Shown here: one piece after another, positions 1,141 to 18,409 of the stretch
How the letters are laid out: every line of letters begins with the position of its first letter
How positions within the stretch are numbered: position 1 is the first letter of the stretch
NCBI RefSeq assembly: GCF_000022065.1
Contig: NC_011898.1
Coordinates: 1,200,001 to 1,264,000, forward strand
DNA length: 64,000 nt
Source of the DNA: Ruminiclostridium cellulolyticum H10
GTDB taxonomy: Bacteria; Bacillota; Clostridia; Acetivibrionales; DSM-1351
Direction: 5' to 3'
The notes under the pieces: generated by a model
The model's input: the letters and a program-made list of their open reading frames with translations, nothing else
Told to the model about the DNA's origin: nothing
The model's database searches: none
Translations under genes and position numbers: made by a program

Positions 1141-4100
1141 GAGTTATTTAATTTTAAAGAAATGAGTTATATAGCTCCTAGAAATTCTTTGGAAGAAATG
1201 GTTGCATGTATAGTTTCCGGTGTTCTTAATATAGAGAAAGTGGGTATTTACGACAACTTTTTTGATCTTGGAGGACATTCATTACTTGCAACACAAGTAA
1301 TCTCACGTATAAGAAGGGAATTCAGTATAGATATATCATTACAAAGTTTTTTTGAAAAACCAAATATTGTGAACTTAGTAGAATTAATACAAAATTCCCT
1401 TGAAATGAGTAATTATGGAAAAGGTAGAACTATACAAAGGGTATCAAGAGATACAGCTTTACCACTATCTTTTGCACAACAGAGGATATGGTTCTTGGAA
1501 CAGCTTGAACCGGCTAGCTCAACCTATAATATACCAATGGCAGTAGGGCTGCACGGGAGTCTTAACACAGAAGCACTTGAGCAAAGCTTGAATGAAATTA
1601 TAAAACGCCACGAGGTGATGCGTACCACCTTTAGAGAAGTGAATGAACAGCTTGTACAGGTTATTGCTCCTGAGCTTATTATAAAGCTGAATATAGAGAG
1701 CTTTGAACATATAGATCAAGCAATAAGAGAGGAAAAAGCATTACAGTATATTCGTGAACAAGCATGTGTACCATTTAAATTATCAGAAGGATATCTGTTC
1801 CACTTAAACTTAGTAAAAATAGACAAAGAATATTATATTTTACTATTAGTTTTACATCATGCTATTTCTGACGGTTGGTCTAAGGGAGTACTTGTAAGGG
1901 AATTGACAGATTTATACCAGTTCCATTCATCCGGAAAGCCTTCAATGTTAAAGGAGCTAAACATACAGTATGCTGACTACGCCGTTTGGCAAAGAGAGTG
2001 GCTTCAAGGGGAAGTGCTTAAGAAACAATTGGATTATTGGAAGGAAAAGCTGGGCGGGCGATTACCTGTTCTGGAGCTTCCCTATGACCATACAAGGCCT
2101 GCTGTACAGTCCTTCAAGGGTAAAACATATGATTTACAGCTATCCAGACAACTTTCTGATTCTTTAAGGGTACTGTCACGTAAAGAGGGATGTACTCTTT
2201 TCATGCTTCTGCTTTCAGCGTTTCAGGTAATGCTTTATCTCTACACAGGAGAAGAGGACATCCCCATTGGTTCACCTATAGCAGGAAGAAATACCTCCGA
2301 TACTGAGGACTTAATAGGCTTTTTTATAAATACATTGGTTTTTAGAGGGGATTTATCAGGAGATCCATCATATAGCCAGCTAATAAGAAGGATTAAGGAA
2401 ACTTCACTTGAAGCCTATGCTCATCAGGATATACCATTTGACAGAATTGTAGAAGAATTAAAACCAAGTCGTGATTTGAGCAGGCAGCCATTGTTCCAGA
2501 TTATGCTGATACTTCAGAATACACCTATGGATGAAGTGAAGCTGGATGATATAAGTATAAATTCTATTCAGGTAGAAAGTGGAACCTCAAAATTCGATTT
2601 GACACTGGAATTATATGATGATGATGAAATATGGGGTTGGTTTGAGTACAGTACAGACCTGTTTGAAGAAAGTACTGTAGAGCGTATGACTAAGCATTTT
2701 ATAAAGCTGCTTGAGGGAATAGTCCAAAATCCCAAGGAGAGGATTTCTAAGATTCCTCTTATGGGGGAAGATGAAAAAACACTTGTACTAGAGGCTTGGA
2801 ACAGAACCGAGAGAGATTATCCCAATGAATGTATTCATACTATGTTTGAAAAGCAGGCCAAGGCTGCTCCAGATGCCTGTGCCATAATGTATCGTGGAGA
2901 ACACTATACTTATGGTCAGCTTGACAGTCTATCAAGCCGTATTGCAAATTACCTTGTCAAGCAGGGGCTACATACCGGTGAACCTGTAGGTGTTTCAATA
3001 GAACGCTCACCTGAGGCGGTAGCCTGTATACTGGGAATCCTTAAAGCGGGTGGAGCGTATGTGCCACTGGATCCCTCTTATCCTAAAGAGCGTATAGCTT
3101 TTATGCTGGAGGATTCGGGGCTAAAGCTTGTACTTACCAAAAAGGACATATTGAAGGGCGTAGAAACTAACGCCGTTATGCTATGTATAGATGAATGTAT
3201 GCAGCAGATCAGTGAGGAAAGTGATGATAGTCCCGAAAACAAAGCTGATAGCGGAAGTGTTGCATATATAATTTATACTTCAGGCTCAACTGGTAAGCCA
3301 AAGGGAGTACAGGGACTACACAAGGGAATAATAAACCGTTGTAACTGGATGTGGAGGACATATCCTTATAAAGAGGAAGAAATTTGCTGCCAGAAGACTG
3401 CGTTAAGCTTTGTAGATTCAATCTGTGAAATATTCAGTCCTCTCTTAAAGGGTATCAGGCTTGTAATTATTCCGGATGAGACATTGCTGGATGTACAGCA
3501 TTTTGTAGATGAGCTTTCAGTAAGCAGAATTAGCAGAATAGTCCTTGTTCCTTCGCTGCTTCAGGCGATGCTGGATACGGTACCTGATATAGGAAAAAAG
3601 CTTTCTGAGCTAAAGCTATGGGTTACAAGCGGAGAAACCCTGAGAATTGAGCTTATGAAAAGGTTCAAGCAGAGTATACCCAATGGCAGACTTATTAATA
3701 TATACGGTTCTTCAGAGGTATCGGCAGATGCAACCTACTACGATACTGCTCTAGCAAGTGAAACATTGTCAAGAGTGCCCATAGGAAGACCAATAGATAA
3801 TACTGAGATATACATACTTGACAGTAACAAGCAGCTAGTCCCTATTGGTGTTGCAGGAGAATTGTATGTTGCAGGAGACGGGTTGGCAAAGGGCTACTTA
3901 AATCGTCCAGAGCTTACCAAAGAAAGGTTTGTTCCAAACCCATATGATACCTCTGGCTTGATGTATAGAATGGGAGATATGGCAAGGTATTTGCCTGATG
4001 GCAATATAGAGTACCTGGGAAGAGGAGACAATCAAGTAAAGATAAGGGGTATACGTGTAGAATCAGGTGAAATAGAGAGTGTACTGTTAAAGTTTCCTTC

Positions 4101-4671
4101 TGTTAAGGAGGCAGTGGTTGTAAGCTACGGAGAGGCAAAGGGAGATGTAAGGCTAGCAGCATATATAGTTCCAAACGTAACGGTACCGGAAGTTGATGAA
4201 CTGAGGAGCTTTATTAGAGGATATCTGTCGGAATACATGATACCTGCAAGTATAAACTTTGTTGAACATATGCCTTTATTACCAAACGGCAAGATTGATA
4301 AGAAGAGTTTGCCTAATCCGGAGTTGCTAAAAGGTCAATTGGAATTTACTCCTCCCTGTTCAGAGATAGAAAAAGAAATAGCTCAGATGTGGAATGAAGT
4401 ATTGGGAGTAAAAGAATCAGGGATTAATAATAGCTTTTTTGACATGGGTGGACACTCACTTATGGCTACGCAATTAATATCAAGGATACGCTTAAAATTT
4501 GGAGTAGATTTGCAACTTAAAAGTTTTTTTAGTTCGCCTACAATCAAGAGTATTGCAAAATCAGTAGAAGACCAAATTTTAATGGATGCAAGCAGTGATC
4601 AAATAAATGATGTACTTAATCTGCTTGAGGAGCTTAGTGAAGAAGATATTTTAAATATGCTTGATTACTAA
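1..4671 (+). CDS. Nonribosomal peptide synthetase, 5'-truncated (A-PCP-C-A-PCP)
   Basis: The frame is open from base 1, so the gene starts upstream of the window. Counting codons from base 1, the order is: an adenylation (A) domain entered before its A3 motif YTSGSTGRPKG and ending at LPNGKIDKK; a carrier domain (LGGHS, Ser427); a condensation domain with intact HHAISDG (His619/His620); a second complete A domain (A3 YTSGSTGKPKG); and a carrier domain (GGHS, Ser1486). The tail LLEELSEEDILNML may be a docking helix. Aligned by eye to GrsA-PheA, both A domains give V235 D236 C239 V278 V299 S301 I322 A330 D331 K517. Asp235, which normally binds the alpha-amino group, is replaced by Val with Asp one position later, as in beta-alanine-activating domains (recalled code VDWVISLADK). 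I infer two successive beta-alanine residues. The two A domains are about 98% identical in DNA. Core A8 of the second reads RVESGEIE, where Leu is usual. Confidence 0.93.
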   Translation, partial: LCIDECMQQISEESDDSPENKADSGSVAYIIYTSGSTGRPKGVQGLHKGIINRCNWMWRTYPYKEEEICCQKTALSFVDSICEIFSPLLKGIRLVIIPDETLLDVQHFVDELSVSRISRIVLVPSLLQAMLDTVPDIGKKLSELKLWVTSGETLRIELMKRFKQSIPNGRLINIYGSSEVSADVTYYDTALASETLSRVPIGRPIDNTEIYILDSNKQPVPIGVAGELYVAGDGLAKGYLNRPELTEERFVPNPYDTSGLMYRMGDMARYLPDGNIEYLGRGDNQVKIRGIRVELGEIESVLLKFPSVKEAVVVSYGELKGDVRLAAYIVPDVTVPEVDELRSFIRGYLPEYMIPVSINFVEHIPLLPNGKIDKKSLPDPELFNFKEMSYIAPRNSLEEMVACIVSGVLNIEKVGIYDNFFDLGGHSLLATQVISRIRREFSIDISLQSFFEKPNIVNLVELIQNSLEMSNYGKGRTIQRVSRDTALPLSFAQQRIWFLEQLEPASSTYNIPMAVGLHGSLNTEALEQSLNEIIKRHEVMRTTFREVNEQLVQVIAPELIIKLNIESFEHIDQAIREEKALQYIREQACVPFKLSEGYLFHLNLVKIDKEYYILLLVLHHAISDGWSKGVLVRELTDLYQFHSSGKPSMLKELNIQYADYAVWQREWLQGEVLKKQLDYWKEKLGGRLPVLELPYDHTRPAVQSFKGKTYDLQLSRQLSDSLRVLSRKEGCTLFMLLLSAFQVMLYLYTGEEDIPIGSPIAGRNTSDTEDLIGFFINTLVFRGDLSGDPSYSQLIRRIKETSLEAYAHQDIPFDRIVEELKPSRDLSRQPLFQIMLILQNTPMDEVKLDDISINSIQVESGTSKFDLTLELYDDDEIWGWFEYSTDLFEESTVERMTKHFIKLLEGIVQNPKERISKIPLMGEDEKTLVLEAWNRTERDYPNECIHTMFEKQAKAAPDACAIMYRGEHYTYGQLDSLSSRIANYLVKQGLHTGEPVGVSIERSPEAVACILGILKAGGAYVPLDPSYPKERIAFMLEDSGLKLVLTKKDILKGVETNAVMLCIDECMQQISEESDDSPENKADSGSVAYIIYTSGSTGKPKGVQGLHKGIINRCNWMWRTYPYKEEEICCQKTALSFVDSICEIFSPLLKGIRLVIIPDETLLDVQHFVDELSVSRISRIVLVPSLLQAMLDTVPDIGKKLSELKLWVTSGETLRIELMKRFKQSIPNGRLINIYGSSEVSADATYYDTALASETLSRVPIGRPIDNTEIYILDSNKQLVPIGVAGELYVAGDGLAKGYLNRPELTKERFVPNPYDTSGLMYRMGDMARYLPDGNIEYLGRGDNQVKIRGIRVESGEIESVLLKFPSVKEAVVVSYGEAKGDVRLAAYIVPNVTVPEVDELRSFIRGYLSEYMIPASINFVEHMPLLPNGKIDKKSLPNPELLKGQLEFTPPCSEIEKEIAQMWNEVLGVKESGINNSFFDMGGHSLMATQLISRIRLKFGVDLQLKSFFSSPTIKSIAKSVEDQILMDASSDQINDVLNLLEELSEEDILNMLDY
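3181..4320 (+). repeat. Direct repeat copy 2: adenylation-domain duplication
   Basis: Second copy of the repeat at 1-1140. Differences cluster in the 3' half (about 14 of 20 fall after 3840), so the 5' half was homogenised more recently or is under stronger constraint. The carrier domains after the two copies are clearly different in sequence, so only the A domain was copied or converted, not the whole module. Confidence 0.95.
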
Positions 4672-4711
4672 CAGCAAGCAAGATGTTATTAAATCCGGGA
4701 AGGTGATATAT

Positions 4712-6337
4712 ATGGAGCTGACATTTAACCCGCAAAATTTTTCTCCAGAGGAAACGCAAAGCGGTGAAACAAAAAAAGAAATACTTGATCTGTTTTCCGT
4801 AACAGATAGTAGTTTGTTGAAGGCTAGAAATGAAACAGATAGAAGGGTTTCAGAAGTAATAAATGAATTTATAGGTGGAAGTGAAGTAAGCACCGATGTC
4901 AGGTTAAATGATTTGCTGACAAACTTTTGTAAAAGCGAAATACCTGATAAACCGTTAAATGTGGACGAGTACATTGCATTTTTTAACAAAAATATAATAC
5001 GTCATTCTACGCGTACTTCTTCACCCAGATATATAGGGCACATGACTTCGGCACTTCCTTATTTCATTAAGCCACTTGCTGGCTTAATCGTTACACTCAA
5101 TCAGAACGTTGTAAAAGCAGAAACAGCAAAGGTGCTAACTCCATACGAACGTCAAGTAATCGCTATGTTGCATAGGGCAATTTATCAATTTGATTCGGAT
5201 TTCTATAATCATCACATTCAAAATAGGGAAAGTGTGCTGGGAATACTGACCTCAGGAGGGACTATAGCAAACCTTACAGCATTATGGTGTGCCCGTAATA
5301 GTGCGTTAGGCCCGTGTGAAGGCTTTAATGGAGTAGAAAAGGAAGGTATGGATGCAGCTCTGAAATTTTATGGGTACAAGGATGCTGTTATTATAGGCTC
5401 TGCTATGATGCATTATTCCTTTGAGAAAGCTGCAGATCTACTGGGTATAGGGTCTAATAACAGCATCAAGATACCTGTAGATAAAAATAATCATATAGAT
5501 TTATCTGAATTACGTAAAACTGTGGAGGAATGCCATAGGAAAAGAAGGCTTATCATAGCCATAATAGCTAATGCAGGTACAACGGACTGTGGTGCAATAG
5601 ATCCAATAGAGAGAGTTGCTGAAATTGCTTATAAAGAAGGATGCCACTTCCATGTTGACGCTGCATGGGGAGGACCCCTTTTATTTTCTGACAAGTATAG
5701 AAATAGGCTTAAGGGAATTGAACTGGCAGACTCAGTCACAATTGACGGACATAAACAGCTTTATCTTCCCATGGGATTGGGGATGATTTTTATGCGTAAT
5801 CCACAGGCCGCAAAAAGCATTGAAAAAAATTCAAACTATATAATACGACGGGGGTCAATAGATCTTGGAAGGAGATCCCTTGAGGGCTCAAGGCCTGCTA
5901 TGTCAATATACTTACATGCGGCCCTCAATATAATAGCAAAGGGCGGGTATGAATTTCTTATAAATGAAGGCATAAAAAAGGCTGAATATATGGCGGGTCT
6001 AATTAAATCAATGAGGGAATTTGAGCTGCTTACAGAGCCTGATATGAATATGCTCCTATATCGCTTTATTCCTGAACGATTAAGAGGTAAAGCTGCGGAT
6101 CACATGCTTGATGATGCTGATAACGAAGTAATTAATAAATACAATGAACAACTTCAGAAGTTACAGCGCAATGGGGGGTATTCCTTTGTATCCCGTACAT
6201 CTTTTAGTTCAGAATTGTATCAAAACAAATCCCTTGTAGCTTTACGAGCAGTACTGGCAAATCCTCTTACTTGTGAAGCTAATATAAATGAGGTTATCAA
6301 CGATCAGCTAAATATAGCAAAACGTTTAAATTTATAA
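4712..6337 (+). CDS. panP: PLP-dependent decarboxylase, PanP-like (aspartate 1-decarboxylase)
   Basis: This is a 541-residue group II PLP decarboxylase. The pyridoxal lysine is K348 in DGHKQLYLP, preceded by the cofactor-binding HVDAAWGGP. The N-terminal part (SPRYIGHMTSALPYF, then ALNQN-like and ETAK segments) resembles the PanP family of pyridoxal aspartate 1-decarboxylases, which convert L-aspartate to beta-alanine; length also fits. The ATG at 4712 is preceded by GAAGGTG at good spacing. An upstream TTG at 4661 overlapping the NRPS stop is less likely. The position between two NRPS genes, directly after A domains with a beta-alanine-like code, suggests dedicated precursor supply. Alternatives in the same fold are glutamate or 2,4-diaminobutyrate decarboxylase; the latter would give diaminopropane. 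The family call is firm; the substrate is inferred. Confidence 0.85.
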   Translation: MELTFNPQNFSPEETQSGETKKEILDLFSVTDSSLLKARNETDRRVSEVINEFIGGSEVSTDVRLNDLLTNFCKSEIPDKPLNVDEYIAFFNKNIIRHSTRTSSPRYIGHMTSALPYFIKPLAGLIVTLNQNVVKAETAKVLTPYERQVIAMLHRAIYQFDSDFYNHHIQNRESVLGILTSGGTIANLTALWCARNSALGPCEGFNGVEKEGMDAALKFYGYKDAVIIGSAMMHYSFEKAADLLGIGSNNSIKIPVDKNNHIDLSELRKTVEECHRKRRLIIAIIANAGTTDCGAIDPIERVAEIAYKEGCHFHVDAAWGGPLLFSDKYRNRLKGIELADSVTIDGHKQLYLPMGLGMIFMRNPQAAKSIEKNSNYIIRRGSIDLGRRSLEGSRPAMSIYLHAALNIIAKGGYEFLINEGIKKAEYMAGLIKSMREFELLTEPDMNMLLYRFIPERLRGKAADHMLDDADNEVINKYNEQLQKLQRNGGYSFVSRTSFSSELYQNKSLVALRAVLANPLTCEANINEVINDQLNIAKRLNL

Positions 6338-6381: not shown

Positions 6382-9300
6382 ATGTCTGATAATAGATTGG
6401 AAATAATTAAACAGCTTTCGCCGGCAAAGAGGGAACTACTTATTAAGAAGCTTCGGAAAGAGGTTACAGAGAAAAAAGATCAGGGAATACCCAGATATAC
6501 CGGAGATAAACCTGCTCCGCTTTCGTTTTCTCAAGAGAGAATGTGGTTTCTGAATGAACTACAGCCTGATAATCCAGCATACAACATATTTTTTGCTGCA
6601 AGGATTAAAGGCATTCTGGAAATACCAGTACTACAAAAAAGCATAGATGAAATTATAAAGCACCATGAAGCTATGAGGATAGTAATTGGACTATCAGATG
6701 GAAAGCCTGTGCTTATAGAGACTCCGGCATTTAGTGTACCAATAAATTTTATAGATATAACAGATGTTGAACAGGAACTGCAAGAATCAACGATCAGAAT
6801 ACTTGCAACTGAGGAGGCCCAAAAAACCTTTGACCTTACAAAGAGTCCTCTTTTTAGTTTCACGCTTCTAAAGCAAAGTGAAAAAGAAAATGTTTTGTTC
6901 ATAAAAATGCATCATATTATATCAGATGGTTGGTCAATGCGTCTGTTTGTAAAAGAAATGTCAGAGTTATACGAAGGCTATAAGAACGGAAATCCTGTTA
7001 TACTACCTGAACTACCCATACAATATAGAGACTTTTCTTACTGGCAGCGAAATCGGCTAAAGGATAATTTAATGGAATCCCAAATGTTATATTGGAAGCA
7101 ACAACTTGGTAATTGTTCACATATACTGGAACTTCCAACGGATCATCCTCGTCCTATTTCTCAACGTTTTAAGGGAGCAATAAAAAGGTTTTCACTTTCA
7201 CCACAATTGGGGGAAACCATAAGGGAGCTTTGCAAAAGGGAGGGTGTCACTCTTTTTATGACATTGATATCTGCCTTTTATACACTGCTTTACCGTTATA
7301 CTTATCAGGAGGAAATAGTAGTTGGAACACCTATTGCTAATCGTAATTATTTTGAGACTGAAAGACTTATAGGTTGCTTTGTAAATACATTGGCTCTACG
7401 TACAGAACTGAATGGAGAAGATACGTTTAAGGAACTGTTATTACGTGTCCGTAATGTATGCCTTGGTGCTTACGCCAATCAGGATATGCCTTTTGACAAA
7501 TTGGTAGAGGTACTTCATCCTCAGAGAGACTTAAGCAGACAACCGATATTTCAGGTTATGTTTATTTTACAAAACACGCAAATTAACAAAATTGTACAGA
7601 GTGATTTTGATATAAGCCCAATACAGGTTGACAGTGGGGTAGCAAAGTTTGACCTTACTTTGGAGCTTTATGATGAGGATATAATAAATGGTTGGTTTGA
7701 GTATAATACAGACCTTTTTAATGAAGATACCATTGAGCGAATGATAGGACATTTAAAAAACATATTGGAAGGAGTAGTCAAGAACGTAGAACAACGTATA
7801 GCTGACATTGATATATTAGGCGAGAAAGAGCGTAGTATGCTACTGGAAGAATGGAACAATACAGAGTATGATTATCCGGAAAAACTCTGCCTGCATCAAC
7901 AATTCGAGAAGCAAGCAGAAAAGAACCCTGATGGGATTGCTGTAATATTTGAAGAACAACAGCTTACATATAAGGAATTAAACCTGCGTGTAAATCAACT
8001 GGCACACTATTTACGTAGGTTGGGGGTGGGACCTGACACCATTGTAGGAGTTCTGATGGATCGTTCCTTAGAGAGTGCAATAGCATTGGAGGGTATTCTC
8101 AAAGCAGGTGGAGCATATTTGCCATTTGATACCGATTGTCCTAAAGAACGTCTCACATTTATGCTTGAAGACGCACAGGTACCTATATTGGTTACTCAGG
8201 AAAGGCATATTGAAGCACTCAAAGATATAAATACAATAAAAATATGCATAGATGCCAATTATAATGAAATCTCAAAAGAAAGCATTGAAAACCCCGTTAA
8301 TATTGCATCAATGAATAATCTCGCTTATGTAATTTATACATCGGGTTCTACAGGTAAGCCAAAGGGTGCAAAGCTGCCGCATCTTGCATTGTTCAATAGA
8401 ATCAAGTGGGCACAGGGTAATTATAAATTAAATGCTACAGATCGGGTTTTACAAAAAACTCCTATGACCTTTGATGTATCTGTATGGGAATATTTCTGGC
8501 CTCTGGCTGTTGGTGCAGGCTTAGTTATGGCTCGTCCCGGAGGTCATAAGGACAGTGCATATCTGGTAGATGTGATTTCTGAGAAGAAAGTTACTACTAT
8601 ACAGTTTGTACCATCTATGCTAAGAGCATTCCTTGAAGAAAATGAAATTAAAAAAGCAAATTGTCTAAGAAGGGTTATCTCAGGGGGAGAAGCTTTATCA
8701 GTTGAGCTTCATGATAGATTTTTTGAAAAGCTTGATGTAGAACTACATAATCAATATGGTCCGACAGAAGCTGCCATTGATGTAACCTACTGGAAATGTT
8801 ATAAGGGGTGTAAACGGCATACTATACCTATTGGACATCCTCTGGCAAATACAAAGTTATACATACTTGATAAATATTTTAATCCGGTACCGATTGGAGT
8901 GCCGGGAGAATTACATATTTGTGGTGATGGACTTGCATCCGGATATCTAAACAGACCCGAGCTCACAAATGAGAAATTTATATCAAACCCTTTTAGTGAT
9001 AAACATGGGGGTAGACTGTATAAAACAGGTGATTTAGTTCGGTATGCCAATGATGGAAGCATTGAATTTATAGGTAGAATAGACCATCAGGTAAAAATAC
9101 GAGGTTTAAGAATAGAACTGGGAGAGATTGAAGCAATGCTGCTTCAGCATCCTGATGTACATGCATCTGCTGTAATTGTATGGGAAGGCTCAGAAGATGT
9201 AAAACGCCTTGTGGCTTACATTGTTATGGAAAGTGGAAAAGAGTTTAATACTACTGAATTGAGAAGCTATCTAAAGGCTAAACTTCCGGATTACATGGTC

Positions 9301-12300
9301 CCGGCAGTACTTATGAATATTGACGCCCTCCCTCTTACTACCAGTGGCAAGTTAGATAAAAGAGGACTACCGGCAGTTGATTTTTCAAGGGATATGATGG
9401 AACAACCCTTTGCGGCTCCAAGAAATCATGTGGAAGAAACGCTTGCAGGAATATGGGCCGATATACTTAAGCTTGAAGAGGTGGGTATACACGATAGATT
9501 CTTTGAATTAGGGGGAGACTCTATTCTAAGCATACAGGTGGTCGCTAGAGCTCGTCAGTCTGGCATATACATAACTCCAAAACAAATTTTTGAACATCAA
9601 ACAATTGAGGAACTAGCACAAGTGGTAAATACAGAAAAACTTGTTCACTCAGAAGAAGGACTAGTCACAGGAAGAGTGCCGCTCACTCCAGTTCAGCATT
9701 ACTTTTTTGAGCAGAAGCTGGAACAGGCTCATCATTTTAATCAGGCGGTTATACTTGAGGTTGAGGCTGGAGTTAGTTCTTGTATGGTGGAAAATGCGAT
9801 TCAGCAGCTCCTTATACATCACGATGCTCTCAGAATGACAGTTGAGAATCCCGATAGCGGTTGGGGAGAAATCGAAAGGGAGCCTGATTATTCAAGATAT
9901 TATACAGTGCTTGACCTTTCCACACTAAGTGTGGGAGAACAGAAAAAGGAATTACTGAAAGTTTCTTCAGAAATGCAGGCAAGCCTTGATTTAGCAAAAG
10001 GCTCCATATTTAAGGCTGTATATTTTAATATGGGGGCTGAACAGTTGGCAAGGCTGGTAATTATAATTCATCACCTGGTTGTAGACGGAATTTCATGGAG
10101 AGTATTGCTTGAAGATTTACAGACCTTATGTAAGTCAAACAGTTTACCCCAAAAAACCACATCCCTTAAATACTGGGCTGAAAAGCTTGCATCATATGCA
10201 CAATCAACAGATATTGAGAAACACCTAAGCTATTGGCAGTCCTTGTCTGAAGTTAGTTTGCCTGCTTTACCAAGTGACTTTGAGGCGAATTATGATATGA
10301 ATACCGAAGGAGAAAAGCAAACGATATCGGTATTTCTTGGGAGTGGTGAAACAAAGGCACTTCTGGATGAAGTACCTGCAGTTTACCATACACAGATAAA
10401 CGATATCTTGCTCACAGCATTGACTCAGGCATTTGCAGAATGGTCTGGTCAGAATCGTTTGTTGGTTGACCTTGAAGGACATGGTAGAGAAGATATCTTT
10501 ACAGATGTTGATATATCAAGGACAGTAGGCTGGTTTACTACTATATTTCCTGTTTTATTGGATTTTGGTAACAGCGGGGATATAGGGGAAAAAATAGTTA
10601 AAGTAAAGGAAACACTTAGGGAGATACCCTGTGGAGGGTTGACTTATGGTTTACTCAAGTACTTAGGCAAGTATAAAAAGCAATTAAGTAAGATACCTAA
10701 AGGAAGTATACTTTTCAATTACTTAGGTCAATTTGATCAGATTACAAATGAAGATTCTCTATTTAAAGTAATTCAAGAGCCAATTGGGACGACTAGAGGT
10801 GAAAAGAACCTTAGAAGTCACCTTTTAGAAGTAAATGCTCTCATTGGTGGAGGGGTTTTACAAGTAGACTGGGAATTCAGCCGAAAAATATTCAATAAAA
10901 AAACTGTAGAGAAGCTTGCAAAGGGCTTTATAAAGGCATTGGAAGGAATTATTCAATACTGCAAAACAGCTCAAACAAGGTATACGCCATCAGACTTTCC
11001 TATGTCTGGGCTTACTCAGCAAAAGCTCAATGAGATAGTTGGAAATAACATAGAAATTGAGAACATATATCCGCTGGCACCAATGCAGCAGGCTGTATTA
11101 TCATATAACCTGTTTTCAGTTAGCTCGGGTACAAATATACAGCAGCTTTCATGGCTGATTGAAGGTGATTTGGATATTGATCTATTTAAAACCGCTTGGC
11201 AGAAAGTTGTTGATAAATATGCCATACTTAGGACTTCTTTTATATGGAAAAAGCTTAAGAAGCCTCTTCAAGTAGTTTTCCGTTCATTAAGATTGTCATT
11301 TGAAGAGGCTGACTGGAGTCAACTGCCTTCTAAACAGAAGGAACAGGCACTGGCTGACTATATGGAGGGAAACCGTAAGCGTGGTTTTAAAGTATCGGAA
11401 GCTCCCCTTATGTGCTGCTTTATCGCCTGCTTGGGAAAAGGGGTATACAGATTTGTATGGAGTTACTGGACTTCTCTATTTGATAACTGGAGTTGGGCGA
11501 ACATAATAAAAGAAGCATTCCAAAACTATAAGCTTCTATCTGAGGGTAATAATCTACCAGCTATAAGCAGCTCTCCTTTCTCAAGCTATATTCAATGGAT
11601 AATGCAACAGGACGAAGCACAGGCAGCTGACTTCTGGCGAAATGAGCTCAAAGGTTTTAATTCTTCTATGGATATAGGGATTGAGCGACGTACACAGGAT
11701 TATTTAAATAAAAGTTTTGATGCTGGTGAAGTTGAGGTTGGTTTTACTGAAGAAGAAACGAAGCTGCTTACAGCTTTTATCAGGAAGTATAGCATAACTC
11801 TTGGCTCGCTTTTACAGGGGGCATGGGTGCTTCTCTTGTCGCAGTATAGTGGTCAAGAGGACATTCTATACGGAGTATTAACCTATGGACGACCGGCATC
11901 ACTTAAGGATGTAGATTCTATGGTAGGATTGTTTTCAAATAATTTACCTGTACGAGTAAGGGTAGAAAAAGACGTCAATATTGTAGATTGGCTAAGAGAT
12001 ATTCAGGACAAGCAGGTAGTACTTCGTCAGTATGACTATGTAACTGTTCAACAAATTGCAAAGTGGAGTCTTGTACCACTTAGTGTTTTACAAAGAGCAA
12101 TATATGATAGAACATTTATATTTGTAAAAGCTCCAGAGGAAGACTTTTTTTCACAGCAGAGTGAAGATAGTGTAAGACTAAGTCAATATCAAAATACATT
12201 GCAATTAAATATACCTTTGAGGCTATACGCAGAGCCATCAAACAAGATTTTAATAAGGGCAAAATATGATAGTGCAACTTTTAGTGGTGAAGACATTCAA

Positions 12301-12402
12301 AGTATGCTTAGATCCATGAAACAATTATTAGGAAAAATGAGCTCAAGTCCAGATGTGAAACTTTATGACCTTATAAAGAATAAACATGATACAGAACTAT
12401 AA
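6382..12402 (+). CDS. Nonribosomal peptide synthetase (C-A-PCP-E-C*)
   Basis: This 2006-residue protein starts with a short helical leader that may dock to the preceding synthetase. Domains: condensation (about 40-470, MHHIISDGWS at His176); adenylation (about 490-990, YTSGSTGKPKG near 652); carrier with LGGDS (Ser1047), the form typical before epimerases; epimerization (about 1095-1530) with HHLVVDGISW near 1230, EGHGRE and NYLGQFDQ; and a C-terminal condensation-like domain (about 1560-2000). In that last domain HHxxxDG reads WTSLFDN (W1696, T1697, D1701, N1702), so both histidines, including the catalytic one, are gone. By eye the A-domain code is D-V-W-Q-I-G-Q-I-D-K, nearest among those I recall to glutamine (DAWQFGLIDK). 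The residue would be made D. There is no thioesterase or terminal carrier domain. Confidence 0.94.
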   Translation: MSDNRLEIIKQLSPAKRELLIKKLRKEVTEKKDQGIPRYTGDKPAPLSFSQERMWFLNELQPDNPAYNIFFAARIKGILEIPVLQKSIDEIIKHHEAMRIVIGLSDGKPVLIETPAFSVPINFIDITDVEQELQESTIRILATEEAQKTFDLTKSPLFSFTLLKQSEKENVLFIKMHHIISDGWSMRLFVKEMSELYEGYKNGNPVILPELPIQYRDFSYWQRNRLKDNLMESQMLYWKQQLGNCSHILELPTDHPRPISQRFKGAIKRFSLSPQLGETIRELCKREGVTLFMTLISAFYTLLYRYTYQEEIVVGTPIANRNYFETERLIGCFVNTLALRTELNGEDTFKELLLRVRNVCLGAYANQDMPFDKLVEVLHPQRDLSRQPIFQVMFILQNTQINKIVQSDFDISPIQVDSGVAKFDLTLELYDEDIINGWFEYNTDLFNEDTIERMIGHLKNILEGVVKNVEQRIADIDILGEKERSMLLEEWNNTEYDYPEKLCLHQQFEKQAEKNPDGIAVIFEEQQLTYKELNLRVNQLAHYLRRLGVGPDTIVGVLMDRSLESAIALEGILKAGGAYLPFDTDCPKERLTFMLEDAQVPILVTQERHIEALKDINTIKICIDANYNEISKESIENPVNIASMNNLAYVIYTSGSTGKPKGAKLPHLALFNRIKWAQGNYKLNATDRVLQKTPMTFDVSVWEYFWPLAVGAGLVMARPGGHKDSAYLVDVISEKKVTTIQFVPSMLRAFLEENEIKKANCLRRVISGGEALSVELHDRFFEKLDVELHNQYGPTEAAIDVTYWKCYKGCKRHTIPIGHPLANTKLYILDKYFNPVPIGVPGELHICGDGLASGYLNRPELTNEKFISNPFSDKHGGRLYKTGDLVRYANDGSIEFIGRIDHQVKIRGLRIELGEIEAMLLQHPDVHASAVIVWEGSEDVKRLVAYIVMESGKEFNTTELRSYLKAKLPDYMVPAVLMNIDALPLTTSGKLDKRGLPAVDFSRDMMEQPFAAPRNHVEETLAGIWADILKLEEVGIHDRFFELGGDSILSIQVVARARQSGIYITPKQIFEHQTIEELAQVVNTEKLVHSEEGLVTGRVPLTPVQHYFFEQKLEQAHHFNQAVILEVEAGVSSCMVENAIQQLLIHHDALRMTVENPDSGWGEIEREPDYSRYYTVLDLSTLSVGEQKKELLKVSSEMQASLDLAKGSIFKAVYFNMGAEQLARLVIIIHHLVVDGISWRVLLEDLQTLCKSNSLPQKTTSLKYWAEKLASYAQSTDIEKHLSYWQSLSEVSLPALPSDFEANYDMNTEGEKQTISVFLGSGETKALLDEVPAVYHTQINDILLTALTQAFAEWSGQNRLLVDLEGHGREDIFTDVDISRTVGWFTTIFPVLLDFGNSGDIGEKIVKVKETLREIPCGGLTYGLLKYLGKYKKQLSKIPKGSILFNYLGQFDQITNEDSLFKVIQEPIGTTRGEKNLRSHLLEVNALIGGGVLQVDWEFSRKIFNKKTVEKLAKGFIKALEGIIQYCKTAQTRYTPSDFPMSGLTQQKLNEIVGNNIEIENIYPLAPMQQAVLSYNLFSVSSGTNIQQLSWLIEGDLDIDLFKTAWQKVVDKYAILRTSFIWKKLKKPLQVVFRSLRLSFEEADWSQLPSKQKEQALADYMEGNRKRGFKVSEAPLMCCFIACLGKGVYRFVWSYWTSLFDNWSWANIIKEAFQNYKLLSEGNNLPAISSSPFSSYIQWIMQQDEAQAADFWRNELKGFNSSMDIGIERRTQDYLNKSFDAGEVEVGFTEEETKLLTAFIRKYSITLGSLLQGAWVLLLSQYSGQEDILYGVLTYGRPASLKDVDSMVGLFSNNLPVRVRVEKDVNIVDWLRDIQDKQVVLRQYDYVTVQQIAKWSLVPLSVLQRAIYDRTFIFVKAPEEDFFSQQSEDSVRLSQYQNTLQLNIPLRLYAEPSNKILIRAKYDSATFSGEDIQSMLRSMKQLLGKMSSSPDVKLYDLIKNKHDTEL

Positions 12403-12421
12403 AGTAGAAAGGAGAATACCT

Positions 12422-13750
12422 ATGCTTATCGATGATATCATGGGCAAGATATGGGAAAAAAATTATACTCAATACAAAAAAATTTATGATGATGCTATAG
12501 AAACAGATACAAATAAACTGTTTAAAATACTTTCCGAACAGAAAATGGGTATTATTAATTACCCTGGCGTAACTATGAATTTATTGGCTACAAGTGGCTG
12601 CCCTCACAGGTTTAGGGAGGATAGAATGTCAGGTTGTAGTATGTGCAACTACCAGTCTAACTTTTTAAGCTCAAATGCTGCAATGGCAGCACTAAGGGAA
12701 AAAGATATAAACCTATATGCAAAAGCCGTACGTCTAAGTTTTGAAAATGCGAGAGGTGTTATGTCCAAGGCAAATGCATTTGAATTGATTTCTGCAAATG
12801 ACACTCTCAATCAGAAAGAGTTTCCGACCGAAGCTTTCGAAGAATTATTTAGTAAAAATGACCTGTTTGTTAGAAAACCCTATAAATATATTATGGAAAC
12901 GAGGGCTTCGAGTGTAACTAAAGAAAGCATAGAAATTCTAAAAAAGTACATTGGTGAAAAATCAAGGGTATTAATAGAGTTTGGAATAGAAGCTGGAGAT
13001 GAATGGGTTAGAAACCATTGGATAAATAAGAATATAACCGATGAAGAAATAAAAACGGCAATAGCACTGATACATGAAGCTGGTTTCAAGGTTTCTGTTG
13101 ATATAATTATTGGCATTCCCGGATTAACTGAGCAGCAATCTATTGATATATTCAGACAAACAGTTGATTGGGCTGATAAATTATTGGCAGATGAAATAAT
13201 ATGTTTACCATTAAATAGAAAGGAGGGAACAATTCAGGGGTTTCTGTACAGTGAGCTCAAAGACAACCAAAAGCTAAGTGAGGTTGGGTTAGTTAATGGA
13301 GAACACACTGGGCTTCCGTGGTTATTCTCAGTATTGGATGCAGTTTTCTATGTTGCTAAAGAGAGTCCACATGCAATAGATAAGCTAAACTTTGCACAAT
13401 TAAGTACCAGCCAAAACCTTATAGAAAATACCATGTCATACAACAAAGAATTGGGTTGCTCATGTTCGCAATTAATAATAGAAGCTCTGGAACGATTCAG
13501 AAGGGATAAGAATGTTAACGCACTGGGAGAAGTCAGAGAAATTATAAAAAATGATTCCTGCTATGGGGAGTATACCGACTTATTAGAAAAGCAGAAAGGT
13601 GCTGGAGATATTCCAGCCACAATTAATCTTATTATTGGAGAAGTTGCAAAAAAACTTTGGCCTGAAAGCTGGGAGGAAAAAATAAGCAGCTTTGAGAAGG
13701 AATTAGCACTTTATAAAGGCAATAACAAAAAAAATATATGGAGGGATTAG
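12422..13750 (+). CDS. Radical SAM protein with atypical CX11CX2C cluster motif
   Basis: This is a 442-residue protein. Three cysteines, C60, C72 and C75 (GCP...SGCSMCNY), have spacing CX11CX2C instead of the usual CX3CX2C. The GC...GCxMCxY form recalls the Elp3/archaeosine-type branch of radical SAM enzymes, where the first spacing is long. Downstream, EFGIEAGDEWVRNHWINKN and a GFKVSVDIIIGIPGLT strand fit the later part of a radical SAM barrel. The start is the ATG at 12422 after AAAGGAG; an earlier in-frame ATG at 12386 overlaps the NRPS and has no ribosome site. It is one base short of the next gene, implying coupled translation with the PP-loop protein. The reaction is unknown. A peptide or carrier-bound substrate is a guess from context. 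Confidence 0.8.
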   Translation: MLIDDIMGKIWEKNYTQYKKIYDDAIETDTNKLFKILSEQKMGIINYPGVTMNLLATSGCPHRFREDRMSGCSMCNYQSNFLSSNAAMAALREKDINLYAKAVRLSFENARGVMSKANAFELISANDTLNQKEFPTEAFEELFSKNDLFVRKPYKYIMETRASSVTKESIEILKKYIGEKSRVLIEFGIEAGDEWVRNHWINKNITDEEIKTAIALIHEAGFKVSVDIIIGIPGLTEQQSIDIFRQTVDWADKLLADEIICLPLNRKEGTIQGFLYSELKDNQKLSEVGLVNGEHTGLPWLFSVLDAVFYVAKESPHAIDKLNFAQLSTSQNLIENTMSYNKELGCSCSQLIIEALERFRRDKNVNALGEVREIIKNDSCYGEYTDLLEKQKGAGDIPATINLIIGEVAKKLWPESWEEKISSFEKELALYKGNNKKNIWRD

Positions 13751-13751
13751 T

Positions 13752-14741
13752 ATGACTACACAAGAAAAGAAGACCAATAACGTATATCGAGAAAAAATTC
13801 TTAATTCGGTTCTGGAGAAATATTATAATCCGGATTCAAAATATGATTACTGTGTACTTTTCAGCGGTGGAAAGGACAGCACATATTTAGCAAATATAAT
13901 GAAACAAATGAAGGGAGGAAGGGTATGTACACTTACTGTTGATAATGGATTTGAGGATGAAGTTTTCCTTGACCATGTAAAAAAGGTAGCAGATAAAATA
14001 GGTGTTGATAGCTATATCATTACTCCACCGAAAGAAGATTTTGAATTACTTTTTAACTATGTCATAAAAGAGCCAAAGTTAAGAGCGGTTGATTCAAACG
14101 CAATATGTTATTTCTGTGGGCAGTACATAATGAAAGCTGGCATACGATTTGCTGAAGAAAATAATATACCAGTTGTTATTCATGGGATGTCTCCCACTCA
14201 ATATAACCTCCCAGATAAGCTTGAGAATGAAGAGGTAAGCGAGCAAGCTTTTATAAGAAATATAGAATTGCTTGAAATGTATCGTAATAAAAACATACAG
14301 GATGTATATAAACTGGCCAAGACGCTATACAGATATAATAACGACCCACAAATAAAAGAAATAATGGATAAAACCTTTTATCAATCTAAAAAGGTAAAAA
14401 TGATAATACCTTTCCAATATCTCGATTATAATGTTGAAAATATTAAAAGTATTATTGAGAAGGAGTTGGACTGGGTTAATATGTTCGGATATTCAAATAG
14501 TCTTTATATCTCATCAGGATGTCGAATGTTTGAAATATTTTTGCTTATGGAAAAAAAGATACCAGGCTTCCGTGTACACGAGCATAGGGAATTTGCACAA
14601 GATTTTAATAAAGGTCATGTAACAAAAAAAGCCTATGATTATGCTCTTGATGTAGCTAAAACATTACAGGATCAAGAAGAGATATCGCCTACAATGCATA
14701 GCCTGATAAAGAGAATTGGTCTTGAAGAGGAACTTTTATAA
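13752..14741 (+). CDS. PP-loop ATP pyrophosphatase (AANH superfamily)
   Basis: This 329-residue protein has a PP-loop, FSGGKDSTYL (SGGKDS at residues 38-43), which binds ATP in the adenine nucleotide alpha-hydrolase fold. It also has a CX2C pair (C119, C122) in a region like those of QueC and sugar amidotransferases of the WbpG/PseA group. These enzymes adenylate a carbonyl and let ammonia or sulfide attack. In the closthioamide pathway of Ruminiclostridium cellulolyticum an AANH protein (CtaC) makes thioamides on carrier-bound substrates. Here the gene sits between a radical SAM gene and a stand-alone carrier in an NRPS cluster, so amidation or thioamidation of a carrier-bound intermediate is plausible but inferred. 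It starts at the ATG after GGAGGGATTAGT. Confidence 0.82.
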   Translation: MTTQEKKTNNVYREKILNSVLEKYYNPDSKYDYCVLFSGGKDSTYLANIMKQMKGGRVCTLTVDNGFEDEVFLDHVKKVADKIGVDSYIITPPKEDFELLFNYVIKEPKLRAVDSNAICYFCGQYIMKAGIRFAEENNIPVVIHGMSPTQYNLPDKLENEEVSEQAFIRNIELLEMYRNKNIQDVYKLAKTLYRYNNDPQIKEIMDKTFYQSKKVKMIIPFQYLDYNVENIKSIIEKELDWVNMFGYSNSLYISSGCRMFEIFLLMEKKIPGFRVHEHREFAQDFNKGHVTKKAYDYALDVAKTLQDQEEISPTMHSLIKRIGLEEELL

Positions 14742-14768
14742 TAAAAAATTACATATGGAGGTTGACTT

Positions 14769-15017
14769 ATGCAAAATTTGAATATTGCAAGGATAAGAGA
14801 ACTGTTGAAGGAAACTATGGAAATGGAAGGGGATATAGATACAGTGTCTCCAGATGAGGATTTAACCAATATTGGAATGAATTCGGTATCATTTATACAG
14901 GTAATAGTTGCTTTTGAAGAAGAGTTTGAAATACAGTTTGAGGAAGAAGATCTTGATATTGAACACTTCCGCACAATAAACAGCATACTGGAATTTTTGA
15001 AAACTAAAACTAATTAG
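14769..15017 (+). CDS. Stand-alone acyl/peptidyl carrier protein
   Basis: This is an 82-residue acidic helical protein with the phosphopantetheine site motif GMNSVSF (Ser near residue 40), a normal length for a discrete carrier protein. A strong GGAGG lies before the ATG. It follows the radical SAM and PP-loop genes with short gaps. It differs clearly from the second carrier at 15901 (GFVNSLF), which has the hallmark of hydroxymalonyl/methoxymalonyl carriers. I therefore infer that this one serves the radical SAM/PP-loop pair or receives the chain from the NRPS, but that is not proved by sequence. Confidence 0.9.
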   Translation: MQNLNIARIRELLKETMEMEGDIDTVSPDEDLTNIGMNSVSFIQVIVAFEEEFEIQFEEEDLDIEHFRTINSILEFLKTKTN

Positions 15018-15027
15018 AGGTAAAAAC

Positions 15028-15873
15028 ATGAAAAGAATAGGTGTTGTTGGTGCCGGAGTTATGGGTATTGGGGTAGCACAGAATTTTGCCCAAAAAGGAT
15101 ATCCAGTTACTCTGGTAGATATCAATAAGGACATATTAAAACATGCAGAAAGTGAAATACGTAACAATATACGTTTTTACAGTTTATTCAATAAAAGTGA
15201 GAAGCTTGAGGATGCTGATACAATTATAGCAAGGATAAATTTTACGGTAGAACTTCAGGAACTAGAAGCTTCAGACTTCGTAGTAGAAAATATAACTGAA
15301 AAATGGGAAGAAAAAAAGGAAGTGTATGAAAAACTTGCTTTGATATGCTCTGAATTATGTATATTATTGGTAAACACTTCATGTATACCAATAACTAGAA
15401 TAGCGGCATTAACCAAAAATCCTGATAGAGTGATAGGTACTCATTTTATGAACCCTGTACCTATGAAAACTGTAATTGAAATTATAAGAGGTTACCACAC
15501 TTGTGAAGAAACAATTGAAGCAACAAAAGATCTGCTGAGGGGAATAGGTAAGGAGTGTATCATTGTAAATGATTTGCCGGGATTTGTGTCAAATAGGATT
15601 TCCCATTTATATATGAATGAGGCAGCATTTGTTGTACAGGATCAGGTTGCAAGTCCTGAAGCAGTAGATGATATATTTAAAAAATGCTATGGACATAAAA
15701 TGGGGCCTCTTGAAACGGCTGACCTTATAGGACTTGATACGGTGGTAAATTCTCTAAATGCTCTTTATGAAAGCTTTCAGGACACTAAGTTTCGATGCTG
15801 TCCATTGCTAAGTAAAATGGTAGATGCGGGGCTGTTAGGCAGAAAATCCGGAAGGGGTTTCTATGAATACTAG
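15028..15873 (+). CDS. 3-hydroxyacyl-CoA dehydrogenase family protein (FkbK/ZmaG-like)
   Basis: This is a 281-residue NAD-dependent dehydrogenase with an N-terminal Rossmann motif, IGVVGAGVMGIGVA, and the family features GTHFMNPVP and NDLPGFVSNRI. Length matches 3-hydroxybutyryl-CoA dehydrogenases. With the following ACP, acyl-CoA dehydrogenase and FkbH-like genes it makes the known set that turns 1,3-bisphosphoglycerate into hydroxymalonyl-ACP. In that pathway this enzyme oxidises the C3 alcohol of glyceryl-ACP to the aldehyde. The ribosome site is GAGG. The role is taken from the zwittermicin and FK520 pathways. Confidence 0.88.
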   Translation: MKRIGVVGAGVMGIGVAQNFAQKGYPVTLVDINKDILKHAESEIRNNIRFYSLFNKSEKLEDADTIIARINFTVELQELEASDFVVENITEKWEEKKEVYEKLALICSELCILLVNTSCIPITRIAALTKNPDRVIGTHFMNPVPMKTVIEIIRGYHTCEETIEATKDLLRGIGKECIIVNDLPGFVSNRISHLYMNEAAFVVQDQVASPEAVDDIFKKCYGHKMGPLETADLIGLDTVVNSLNALYESFQDTKFRCCPLLSKMVDAGLLGRKSGRGFYEY

Positions 15874-15900
15874 TGTGATAATTAGAAGGGAGCATTAAAG

Positions 15901-16140
15901 ATGGAGGAAATTAAAGTTAAAATAAGAGCATTTTTGAGCCGCTTTTTTAGGAAACATGAACTAAAGGATAATGAGGATATATTTGCTCTCGGATTTGTGA
16001 ATTCACTTTTTGCAATGCAATTAGTTATGTTTTTAGAAAAGGAATTTGGAATTAGAGTAGATAATAAAGATCTTGACTTAAATAATTTTAGAACTATAGA
16101 TACTATTACTGATTTAATCATAAGCAAAAAGGGAGAGTAA
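15901..16140 (+). CDS. Acyl carrier protein of the hydroxymalonyl-ACP cassette (FkbJ/ZmaD-like)
   Basis: This 79-residue carrier protein has the site motif GFVNSLFAMQLV. The phrase GFVNSLF is typical of carriers that hold glyceryl/hydroxymalonyl units (FkbJ, ZmaD). It lies between the 3-hydroxyacyl dehydrogenase and the acyl-CoA dehydrogenase, as in other such cassettes. The basic N-terminal helix (FLSRFFRKH) is unlike the acidic carrier at 14769. Confidence 0.92.
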   Translation: MEEIKVKIRAFLSRFFRKHELKDNEDIFALGFVNSLFAMQLVMFLEKEFGIRVDNKDLDLNNFRTIDTITDLIISKKGE

Positions 16141-16163
16141 ATAATCTACAAGGAAGGTAAAAA

Positions 16164-17300
16164 ATGATAATAGAATTAACGCCTGAACAGCTTAAGTATC
16201 AGGAAGAAGTCAAGACATTCGTAGATACTGTAATAAAACCGATGGCACAACAAAATGATAGAGAAGAACAGATGCCCGCAGAACTCATTAAAAAGATTGG
16301 GGAGAATGGACACTTAGGCTCTGTTATCGCTAAAGAATACGGTGGACAGGAACTTGATATGATATCCATTGGACTATTGAATGAAGAGTTCGGTCGTGGA
16401 TGCTCTTCTGCTAGGAGCTTACTTACAGTTCATGGGATGGTAGCTCTTGCGATTGATAGGTGGGGTACTCAAGAACAGAGAAATTACTGGCTGCCTAGAA
16501 TGTCTAAGGGGCATATAATAGGGGCATTTGGCTTAACTGAACCAAATGTAGGCTCTGATGCTAAAAGCATAGAGACTACAGCAGTTCTAAACGGAGATTG
16601 CTATGTACTGAATGGGAAAAAAAAGTGGATTACTATGGGGCAAGTTGCAGATGTTTTCCTAATTTTTGCTCGGTGTGAGGATAAGCCTACAGCATTTCTT
16701 GTTAACAGAGATACTTCTGGCTTTTCAACTAAGCCTATAAAGGGTTTAATGGGTGCAAGGGCCTCTATGGTTGCAGAGTTGATAATGGAAGACTGTCATA
16801 TTCCTAAAGAGAATATAGTAGGGAGAGTTGGTACGGGACTATCACATGTTGGACTAAACAGTCTTGATTATGGCAGGTATACTATAGCATGGGGATGCGT
16901 CGGATTGGGAGAAGCATGTCTTGAAGAGAGCGTGCGTTATTCAAGAAAAAGAAAGCAGTTTGGACAGCCATTAAGACAAAACCAGCTAATACAGAAGATG
17001 GTAACAGAAATGTCAGTGAATATTAAAGCTGCGAGGCTTCTATGCCTCAATGCTGGCTATCTAAAGGATATTGGAGATCCTGACACAATAATGGAAACAT
17101 GGAATGCAAAATACTTTGCAGCAAAAATGGTAGTTAAGGTGGCAAGTGATGCAGTACAGATTCATGGAGCTAAAGGGTGTTGCAATGAATATCCCGTAGA
17201 AAGATACTATAGGGATTCCAAAATTAATGAAATAATAGAAGGAACAACTCAGATGCATGAGCTGCTGATTGCTACAAATGTATTTAGAAATATCAGATAA
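16164..17300 (+). CDS. Acyl-CoA dehydrogenase family flavoprotein (FkbI/ZmaE-like)
   Basis: This is a 378-residue FAD-dependent acyl-CoA dehydrogenase. Visible features are AFGLTEPNVGSD in the middle domain, the FAD-binding RKQFGQPL, and the C-terminal YRDSKINEIIEGTTQ where the catalytic base normally sits. In hydroxymalonyl/methoxymalonyl-ACP pathways this protein oxidises the aldehyde on the ACP to the carboxylate. Its cassette neighbours support that role over general fatty-acid oxidation. AAGGAAGG precedes the ATG. Confidence 0.9.
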   Translation: MIIELTPEQLKYQEEVKTFVDTVIKPMAQQNDREEQMPAELIKKIGENGHLGSVIAKEYGGQELDMISIGLLNEEFGRGCSSARSLLTVHGMVALAIDRWGTQEQRNYWLPRMSKGHIIGAFGLTEPNVGSDAKSIETTAVLNGDCYVLNGKKKWITMGQVADVFLIFARCEDKPTAFLVNRDTSGFSTKPIKGLMGARASMVAELIMEDCHIPKENIVGRVGTGLSHVGLNSLDYGRYTIAWGCVGLGEACLEESVRYSRKRKQFGQPLRQNQLIQKMVTEMSVNIKAARLLCLNAGYLKDIGDPDTIMETWNAKYFAAKMVVKVASDAVQIHGAKGCCNEYPVERYYRDSKINEIIEGTTQMHELLIATNVFRNIR

Positions 17301-17356
17301 AGTAACAAGAGTGAAAAAGCATGGAAAACTAGGTTTTATGGGGGTGGTTAATTAAG

Positions 17357-18409
17357 ATGAAAGAACTTGATTGTAGGGGAACGAAAGTAAAATGCGTTGT
17401 ATGGGATCTAGATAATACAGTATGGGACGGAGTTTTACTTGAAGATGGAAATGTTAATTTATTTAACGAGGTTGCATCAATTATAAAGACCTTGGATAGC
17501 AGGGGTATACTCCAATCAATAGCGAGCAAAAACGACTACGATTTAGCATTAGCTAAGTTAGAAGAATTTGGCCTAAGGGAATACTTTATCTATCCTCAGA
17601 TTAACTGGAATTCAAAATCATTTTCCATTAAGGAAATTGCAAAAGCTATTAATATCGGAGTTGATACACTGGCTTTTATAGATGATCAACAGTTTGAACT
17701 AGAAGAAGTTAAGTTTGCTGTGCCAGAGGTGTTTTGTATAGATGCATCTAATTTAGGTAATTTGCTGGATATCCCTGAGATGAATCCAGTTTTTATAACA
17801 GAGGATTCTAAAAATAGGAGGCTTATGTATGTAAGTGATATTGAGCGAAATAAGCTGGAGGATGAATTTGAAGGACCTAAAGAAGAGTTCCTTGCTTCTC
17901 TGAATATGTCATTTACAATTATGCATGTACAGGAGGGAGACTTGCAGCGTGCCGAAGAACTTACAGTCAGAACACATCAGTTAAACACAACAGGGTATAC
18001 ATACTCCTACGAGGAGTTAGATAGTTTTCGAAAATCTAATAAACATAAATTATTGATAGCAAGTCTTGAGGATAAATTCGGTACATATGGGAAAATAGGA
18101 CTTGCTTTGGTAGAATGTAATGATGATGAATGGATATTGAAGATGCTTCTAATGTCTTGTAGAGTTATGTCCAGAGGTGTAGGAACTATAATGATAAATT
18201 ATGTTGCAGAACAGGCTAAAAAGGCTGGAGTACGGATGCTGGCTGAATTTATACCAAACGATAGGAATAGGATGATGTATATAACATATAAATTCGCAGG
18301 CTTTCAAGAAATTCAGGAAAAAAATGGGCTTTGTATTCTGGAAAAGGACACCAATGAAATACCACCATATCCAGACTATATCCGAGTTGTTAAAGAGGAT
18401 ATAGCTTAA
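17357..18409 (+). CDS. FkbH-like HAD-superfamily glyceryl-ACP synthase
   Basis: This 350-residue protein has an N-terminal HAD domain with motif WDLDNTVWDG (D17, D19), a FIDDQQFELEEV motif near residues 100-112, and a C-terminal GNAT-like half (about 180-335) containing LLMSCRVMSRGVG. This two-part layout is diagnostic of FkbH proteins, which dephosphorylate 1,3-bisphosphoglycerate and load glycerate onto an ACP. It is the last gene of the natural-product operon, ending before a strong terminator. No O-methyltransferase follows, so the unit would stay as hydroxymalonyl unless a methyltransferase lies elsewhere. Confidence 0.92.
   Translation: MKELDCRGTKVKCVVWDLDNTVWDGVLLEDGNVNLFNEVASIIKTLDSRGILQSIASKNDYDLALAKLEEFGLREYFIYPQINWNSKSFSIKEIAKAINIGVDTLAFIDDQQFELEEVKFAVPEVFCIDASNLGNLLDIPEMNPVFITEDSKNRRLMYVSDIERNKLEDEFEGPKEEFLASLNMSFTIMHVQEGDLQRAEELTVRTHQLNTTGYTYSYEELDSFRKSNKHKLLIASLEDKFGTYGKIGLALVECNDDEWILKMLLMSCRVMSRGVGTIMINYVAEQAKKAGVRMLAEFIPNDRNRMMYITYKFAGFQEIQEKNGLCILEKDTNEIPPYPDYIRVVKEDIA

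Follow-up and report, generated by a model that had tools for sequence, protein, structure and literature searches.

A candidate thioamidation enzyme beside a rare radical SAM protein in a beta-alanine NRPS cluster of Ruminiclostridium cellulolyticum H10

An antibiotic-type, reportedly silent NRPS/PKS cluster of the cellulose-degrading anaerobe R. cellulolyticum H10 contains three adjacent genes encoding a radical SAM protein (rSAM), an AANH/PP-loop protein of the CtaC clade (AANH) and a discrete carrier protein (ACP1). Since the cluster combines a close CtaC relative with a very rare rSAM and a carrier, its product is probably a second, so far unseen compound of the thioamide type, made by a partly new route. 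As of 2019, no bacterial thioamide nonribosomal peptide besides closthioamide was known (PMC6772006). The organism that encodes CtaC can be manipulated genetically, and another CtaC-clade enzyme in it, here with a modular beta-alanine NRPS, makes the portability of thioamidation to ordinary assembly lines testable. The statement in the initial annotation that no pathway with this trio beside a beta-alanine NRPS had been described was too strong, because Dunbar et al. (2019) reported CtaC homologues adjoining NRPSs, and their figure of representative clusters includes radical SAM genes (PMC6772006). The kind of system is already known, and this trio is a new version of it.

The three genes and the surrounding cluster

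The window (64,000 bases) covers bases 1,200,001-1,264,000 of the single 4,068,724-bp chromosome, and the flank upstream of it was read as well. The three tightly spaced genes were found where the initial annotation had placed them (Table 1); their frames are intact, co-directional and nearly overlapping, and they form one operon with gaps of 1 bp between rSAM and AANH, 27 bp between AANH and ACP1, and 10 bp between ACP1 and the next gene. A purine-rich ribosome-binding site lies ahead of every gene of the trio, and the observation is not attributable to a chance pattern. The open frame of rSAM spans 12386-13750, with a likely ATG start at 12422 behind its ribosome-binding site. A scan for promoters and terminators returned sites no more numerous than in shuffles.

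Table 1. Features of the window discussed in the text (positions are those of the window)
Feature	Position	Strand	Evidence
NRPS, two near-identical A domains, beta-alanine-type code (gene start at window -1910)	1..4671	+	Pfam, code reading
Aspartate 1-decarboxylase PanP, beta-alanine supply	4709..6337	+	TIGR03799 617.6 bits, cut-off 606.1
NRPS, three condensation-superfamily domains, one A, one PCP	6382..12402	+	Pfam
Radical SAM protein (rSAM), 442 aa, CX11CX2C; distant RaSEA (TIGR01210) relative	12422..13750	+	PF04055, TIGR01210, AF2
AANH/PP-loop protein (AANH), CtaC clade, 329 aa	13752..14741	+	Tree, cysteine triad, AF2 model
Discrete carrier ACP1, 82 aa, proposed AANH carrier	14769..15017	+	PF00550 45.7 bits
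3-Hydroxyacyl-CoA dehydrogenase, FkbK/asm13-like	15028..15873	+	PF02737 180.5 bits
ACP2, carrier of glyceryl/hydroxymalonyl cassette	15901..16140	+	PF00550 30.2 bits; position between dehydrogenase and acyl-CoA dehydrogenase
Acyl-CoA dehydrogenase, FkbI-like	16164..17300	+	PF00441 144.8 bits
FkbH-domain protein, glyceryl-ACP formation	17357..18409	+	TIGR01686 287.3 bits, cut-off 146.65

From about 1,165.8 kb on the chromosome to window position 18,409, all large genes point one way, in the order 2,142-aa NRPS, trans-acting acyltransferase, KS-KR-ACP, KS-ACP-aminotransferase-C-A-PCP-C-A-oxidase, KS-AT-KR-DH, PCP-C-A-PCP-oxidase protein, NRPS, PanP, NRPS, trio and glyceryl cassette. The description of a beta-alanine NRPS also holds, as PanP scores above its NCBIfam cut-off and both A domains of the NRPS upstream of PanP have V-D-C-V-V-S-I-A-D at the specificity positions, which we take to resemble the beta-alanine code VDWVISLADK. 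The near-identical A domains of this NRPS (window 19-4671) represent a recent module duplication. No gene for AsnB was seen in the operon, and no obvious sulfur donor gene was found in the cluster, nor is there one in cta. Judged by type and size, this is probably the locus CcelB, which is of the cis/trans-AT PKS/NRPS type, comprises 29 proteins and is given with a lower KS count; in standard culture, the organism's PKS clusters were silent (PMC3250452). The cluster is rich in further radical SAM domains. Two other genes were noted upstream of the first NRPS: one within an NRPS/PKS cluster at genome 1158180-1160072, whose product belongs to the RiPP-maturation radical SAM C-methyltransferase family (762 bits), and one ahead of the NRPS at genome 1164260-1165804, encoding a secreted class C beta-lactamase-like hydrolase, possibly a ClbP/ZmaM-like prodrug peptidase.

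Directly 3' of the trio, at 15028-18409, lies a glyceryl/hydroxymalonyl-ACP cassette that had gone unmentioned in the initial annotation. Its dehydrogenase, ACP, acyl-CoA dehydrogenase and FkbH protein follow the usual order of FkbH-K type cassettes (zwittermicin, FK520); unlike those, it has no O-methyltransferase after it, and it is otherwise ordinary. Because ACP2 already occupies the usual carrier position in this cassette, the gene order suggests that ACP1, a PP-binding protein and the discrete carrier originally described, may be free to serve AANH. ACP1 was rejected as a CtaE orthologue, since its identity to the probable CtaE (29%) is no better than that to ACP2 (30%).

Properties of the AANH and radical SAM proteins

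In a tree with 22 relatives, AANH joins the discrete AANH protein of a congener (L087), and the pair groups with CtaC and a CtaC-like protein, the support for this clade being 98/99 with four rows and 86/81 with fewer rows. The congener's protein is 38% identical to AANH, and its gene adjoins NRPS and carrier genes; the neighbourhood of AANH itself consists of NRPS, carrier and PKS genes. The SGGKDS loop is found at residues 38-43, with counterparts of D77 and S78 of CtaC, and C119, C122 and C257 align with C154, C157 and C284, the Fe-S cysteines of demonstrated importance in CtaC (PMC6772006). The CtaC of this genome, encoded at about 3.812 Mb, carries all five residues exactly at the published numbers (PMC6772006). 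The two enzymes share the clade, the ATP loop and the cysteine triad, as well as a beta-alanine thiotemplate context and discrete carriers, but AANH is only 26% identical to CtaC, is without the N-terminal zinc ribbon and has rSAM directly upstream. In addition, the assembly line here is a modular NRPS/PKS line, in contrast to the NRPS-independent one for closthioamide.

The predicted structure of AANH (AF2 pLDDT 82.5) matched the sugar amidotransferase 8wex best (Z 18.0), and LarE (12.6), TtuA (about 11.8), NcsA and the nitrile synthetase ArtA were also listed; several of the LarE/TtuA/NcsA-type matches bind [4Fe-4S] clusters. By itself, the predicted fold is not decisive between sulfur and nitrogen chemistry. 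The overall fold is common to AANH and WbpG/WbuX (TIGR03573; 8wex), but the Fe-S cysteine triad was absent from all five proteins scoring above the sugar amidotransferase cut-off. AANH was rejected as an N-acetyl sugar amidotransferase (TIGR03573, 77.5 vs 203.2 bits), with the cysteine triad, the tree and the neighbourhoods also against it, and as QueC (TIGR00364, 23 vs 150.3 bits), for which the Pfam QueC score (23.8 vs 22 bits) reflects a short PP-loop match only. The same cut-offs, triad, tree and neighbourhoods ruled out a tRNA-modification reading, and none of the neighbourhoods read was tied to tRNA or sugar modification. The placement against CtaC, QueC and WbpG that the initial annotation had called for thus came out in favor of its closthioamide type over the sugar type. 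Taken together, the tree and the cysteine triad, along with the structure matches, support AANH as a putative sulfur-inserting enzyme of the CtaC type.

The radical SAM assignment of rSAM was confirmed by Pfam (PF04055, 43.2 bits, cut-off 29.5), and the cysteines C60-x11-C72-x2-C75 are invariant in 7/7 aligned homologues, with a spacing of x12 in one. The model (AF2 pLDDT 83) has a radical SAM fold; no specific structural relative was found, the fold being generic and many rows being tied near Z 12-14. RaSEA is the nearest curated family, and the match covers the radical SAM core (residues 50-278). Membership was rejected, however, because rSAM falls far below the cut-off (TIGR01210, 62.6 vs 212.15) and has no tRNA or ArcS context, being always found within NRPS/PKS clusters. 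A 65% identical paralogue that keeps the motif, absent from the initial annotation, is encoded about 70 kb upstream (genome 1142326-1143636; L011). TerB, BrxC/D-like and helicase-like genes separate this paralogue from the cluster.

Occurrence of the two enzymes and AANH-interrupted adenylation domains

When 84,980 species genomes were scanned by pattern, an approach that can miss rSAM relatives, only the paralogue and five other loci were found; two of these five were also recovered from a scanned set of 58 genomes from the order. All six rSAM neighbourhoods are NRPS/PKS clusters, and rSAM represents an uncharacterised family linked with thiotemplate chemistry. Among 291 sampled Clostridia genomes, full-length homologues were confined to the H10 genome, among 104 genomes of the family of Paenibacillus plantarum only P. 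plantarum itself had one, and no match was found by tblastn against the PLSDB plasmid collection. Among the neighbourhoods of rSAM homologues, no other locus holds rSAM, a discrete AANH and a discrete carrier together, so conservation of the trio as a cassette was not supported.

An AANH function is present in four of the six rSAM-bearing genomes and is adjacent to rSAM in two. Three of the five other rSAM-bearing genomes have an NRPS with AANH fused inside an A domain (A[AANH]), and each of these genomes also has AsnB and an amino-acid racemase. Against about 4% of the genomes sampled in two groups, the chance of three in five is about 1e-3 by a rough binomial estimate on five genomes. In R. 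cellobioparum subsp. termitidis, rSAM is directly followed by the A[AANH] NRPS, whose interrupted A domain has one apparent frameshift, and in P. massiliensis and P. plantarum the A[AANH] NRPS is on a different contig from rSAM, although the two probably belong to one cluster. The H10 cluster region has equal copy numbers, with two rSAM and two AANH. In contrast, no AANH of this type was found in two rSAM-bearing genomes, a Eubacteriales MAG and that of R. cellobioparum DSM 1351, which shows that AANH is dispensable for the rSAM step. Likewise, no rSAM of this family was found within the 20 kb read around the A[AANH] modules of four Paenibacillales genomes, nor near the congener's discrete AANH. 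Since each occurs without the other, the rSAM and AANH functions are linked yet separable, and the three genes do not form a unit. In the Eubacteriales MAG (L050:6415-9990), the N-terminal A region of the NRPS immediately upstream of rSAM contains a CxxxCxxC motif and a B12-binding domain, at a separate insertion site.

The 2,142-aa NRPS of H10, 34 kb upstream of the window (genome 1165829-1172257; L006:5829-12257), has one A domain that is interrupted twice: a radical SAM and B12-binding unit is inserted between a2 and a3, and a degenerate AANH domain between a8 and a9. The landmarks along the protein are a2 (539), the radical SAM motif (642), the B12-binding domain (976-1086), a3 (1164), a8 (1418), the AANH domain (1451-1786) and a9 (1819). 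Radical SAM followed by B12 is the reverse of the order in stand-alone proteins, and the matches that support this permuted order are weak and local. The fused AANH reads SGGRGAAN, compared to SGGKDS in the other embedded copies, and its branch in the tree is about three times longer than those of its sisters. Alanine at either of the two positions lost in this copy abolished the activity of CtaC (PMC6772006). With its ATP loop gone, the fused copy may be inactive, and the free-standing AANH of the window may have taken over its function. An intact AANH lies between a8 and a9 in seven other genomes, four Paenibacillales and three rSAM-bearing (L114, L115, L116, L117, L068, L069, L051). A review of interrupted A domains covers only methylation, oxidase and ketoreductase insertions, at a2-a3 and a8-a9 (PMC11355689). 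The insertion sites here are the same, but the insert is an AANH in the relatives and an AANH plus a radical SAM/B12 unit in H10. An AANH or radical SAM domain inside an A domain was not found in the literature searched, of which coverage was partial, and may already be known. AANH-interrupted A domains, present in eight genomes including H10, provide a search handle for further such compounds.

A proposed tailoring route and its rivals

Of the options offered in the initial annotation, carrier-bound thioamidation of beta-alanyl amides is the best reading, because of the CtaC clade, the intact ATP-loop and Fe-S motifs, PanP and the two A domains with a beta-alanine code. PanP would supply beta-alanine and the two modules would activate it. 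AANH would then act as a free-standing CtaC-type enzyme in place of the degenerate fused copy. It would adenylate a carrier-bound beta-alanyl peptide at an amide oxygen and exchange this oxygen for sulfur carried by a [4Fe-4S] cluster with C119, C122 and C257 as ligands. CtaC acts only on carrier-bound poly-beta-alanine (PMC6772006); here ACP1 or one of the assembly-line PCPs could be the carrier. rSAM would add a second modification, by radical chemistry, to the same tethered intermediate, and RaSEA-like C-N or C-C chemistry is a guess. From what is directly established (gene order, CtaC clade, intact motifs, thiotemplate context, and beta-alanine supply and code), we infer the sulfur insertion, the role of ACP1 as carrier, the substrate of rSAM and the takeover from the fused copy, and our confidence in the whole route is evenly balanced; the AANH part taken alone leans somewhat towards being right. 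Counting against thioamidation are the low identity to CtaC, the sugar amidotransferase as best structure match and the missing zinc ribbon, and further the lack of an obvious sulfur donor gene, an ACP1 no closer to CtaE than ACP2 is, and the silence of the clusters (PMC3250452).

It is also conceivable that AANH uses a nitrogen nucleophile, adenylating a carrier-bound amide and turning it into an amidine, or that it dehydrates a primary amide to a nitrile, and that a RaSEA-like rSAM then breaks a C-N bond in an adduct with an amino acid. RaSEA, the best family for rSAM, cleaves the C-N bond in preQ0-lysine after lysine has been transferred to a nitrile (PMC11298593), and the fold nearest to AANH, that of N-acetyl sugar amidotransferases, fits nitrogen chemistry, as does ArtA among the matches. 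AsnB is found with the AANH-interrupted NRPS of three genomes and with the free AANH of two more, yet none was seen in the H10 operon. The Fe-S triad, which marks the sulfur-inserting type and is missing from the five true sugar amidotransferases, the position of AANH inside the CtaC clade and the low RaSEA score of rSAM argue further against this chemistry, which we consider improbable. That the trio genes are remnants in a non-functional cluster seems very improbable: the reported silence of the PKS clusters (PMC3250452) and the ATP loop lost from the fused AANH would fit, but the trio frames are intact, their catalytic residues are conserved, ribosome-binding sites are present, and both rSAM paralogues keep the motif.

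The two enzymes could be unrelated tailoring enzymes that are neighbours by chance, with AANH thioamidating the peptide and rSAM acting elsewhere, e.g., on a residue from the interrupted NRPS module. The two genomes with rSAM and no AANH, the A[AANH] modules and the congener's discrete AANH without a nearby rSAM, and the other radical SAM domains of the H10 cluster are all consistent with this. The co-occurrence in four of six rSAM-bearing genomes, the adjacency in two and the equal copies in the H10 cluster region speak against it, and we consider it rather unlikely. Also doubtful is a two-enzyme tailoring system in which an Fe-S AANH, free or in an A domain, would activate a tethered amide and a dedicated rSAM would rebuild the same residue; if true, it would give a thioamide or amidine motif new to nonribosomal peptides.

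Further AANH loci were also noted. The H10 genome encodes a fourth AANH with the cysteine triad between PKS and NRPS genes (genome 2835946-2837052; L097:9946-11052). Near the congener's discrete AANH is a gene for a PhpK-family radical SAM P-methyltransferase (L093:16327-17952, 738 bits), perhaps marking a phosphinate-peptide cluster with an AANH. In two Paenibacillales loci (L118:4585-14273 and L119:5539-15320), a discrete AANH with AsnB, a ligase and a carrier adjoins NRPS genes, and both loci also hold acyl-CoA dehydrogenase and electron-transfer-flavoprotein-like genes.
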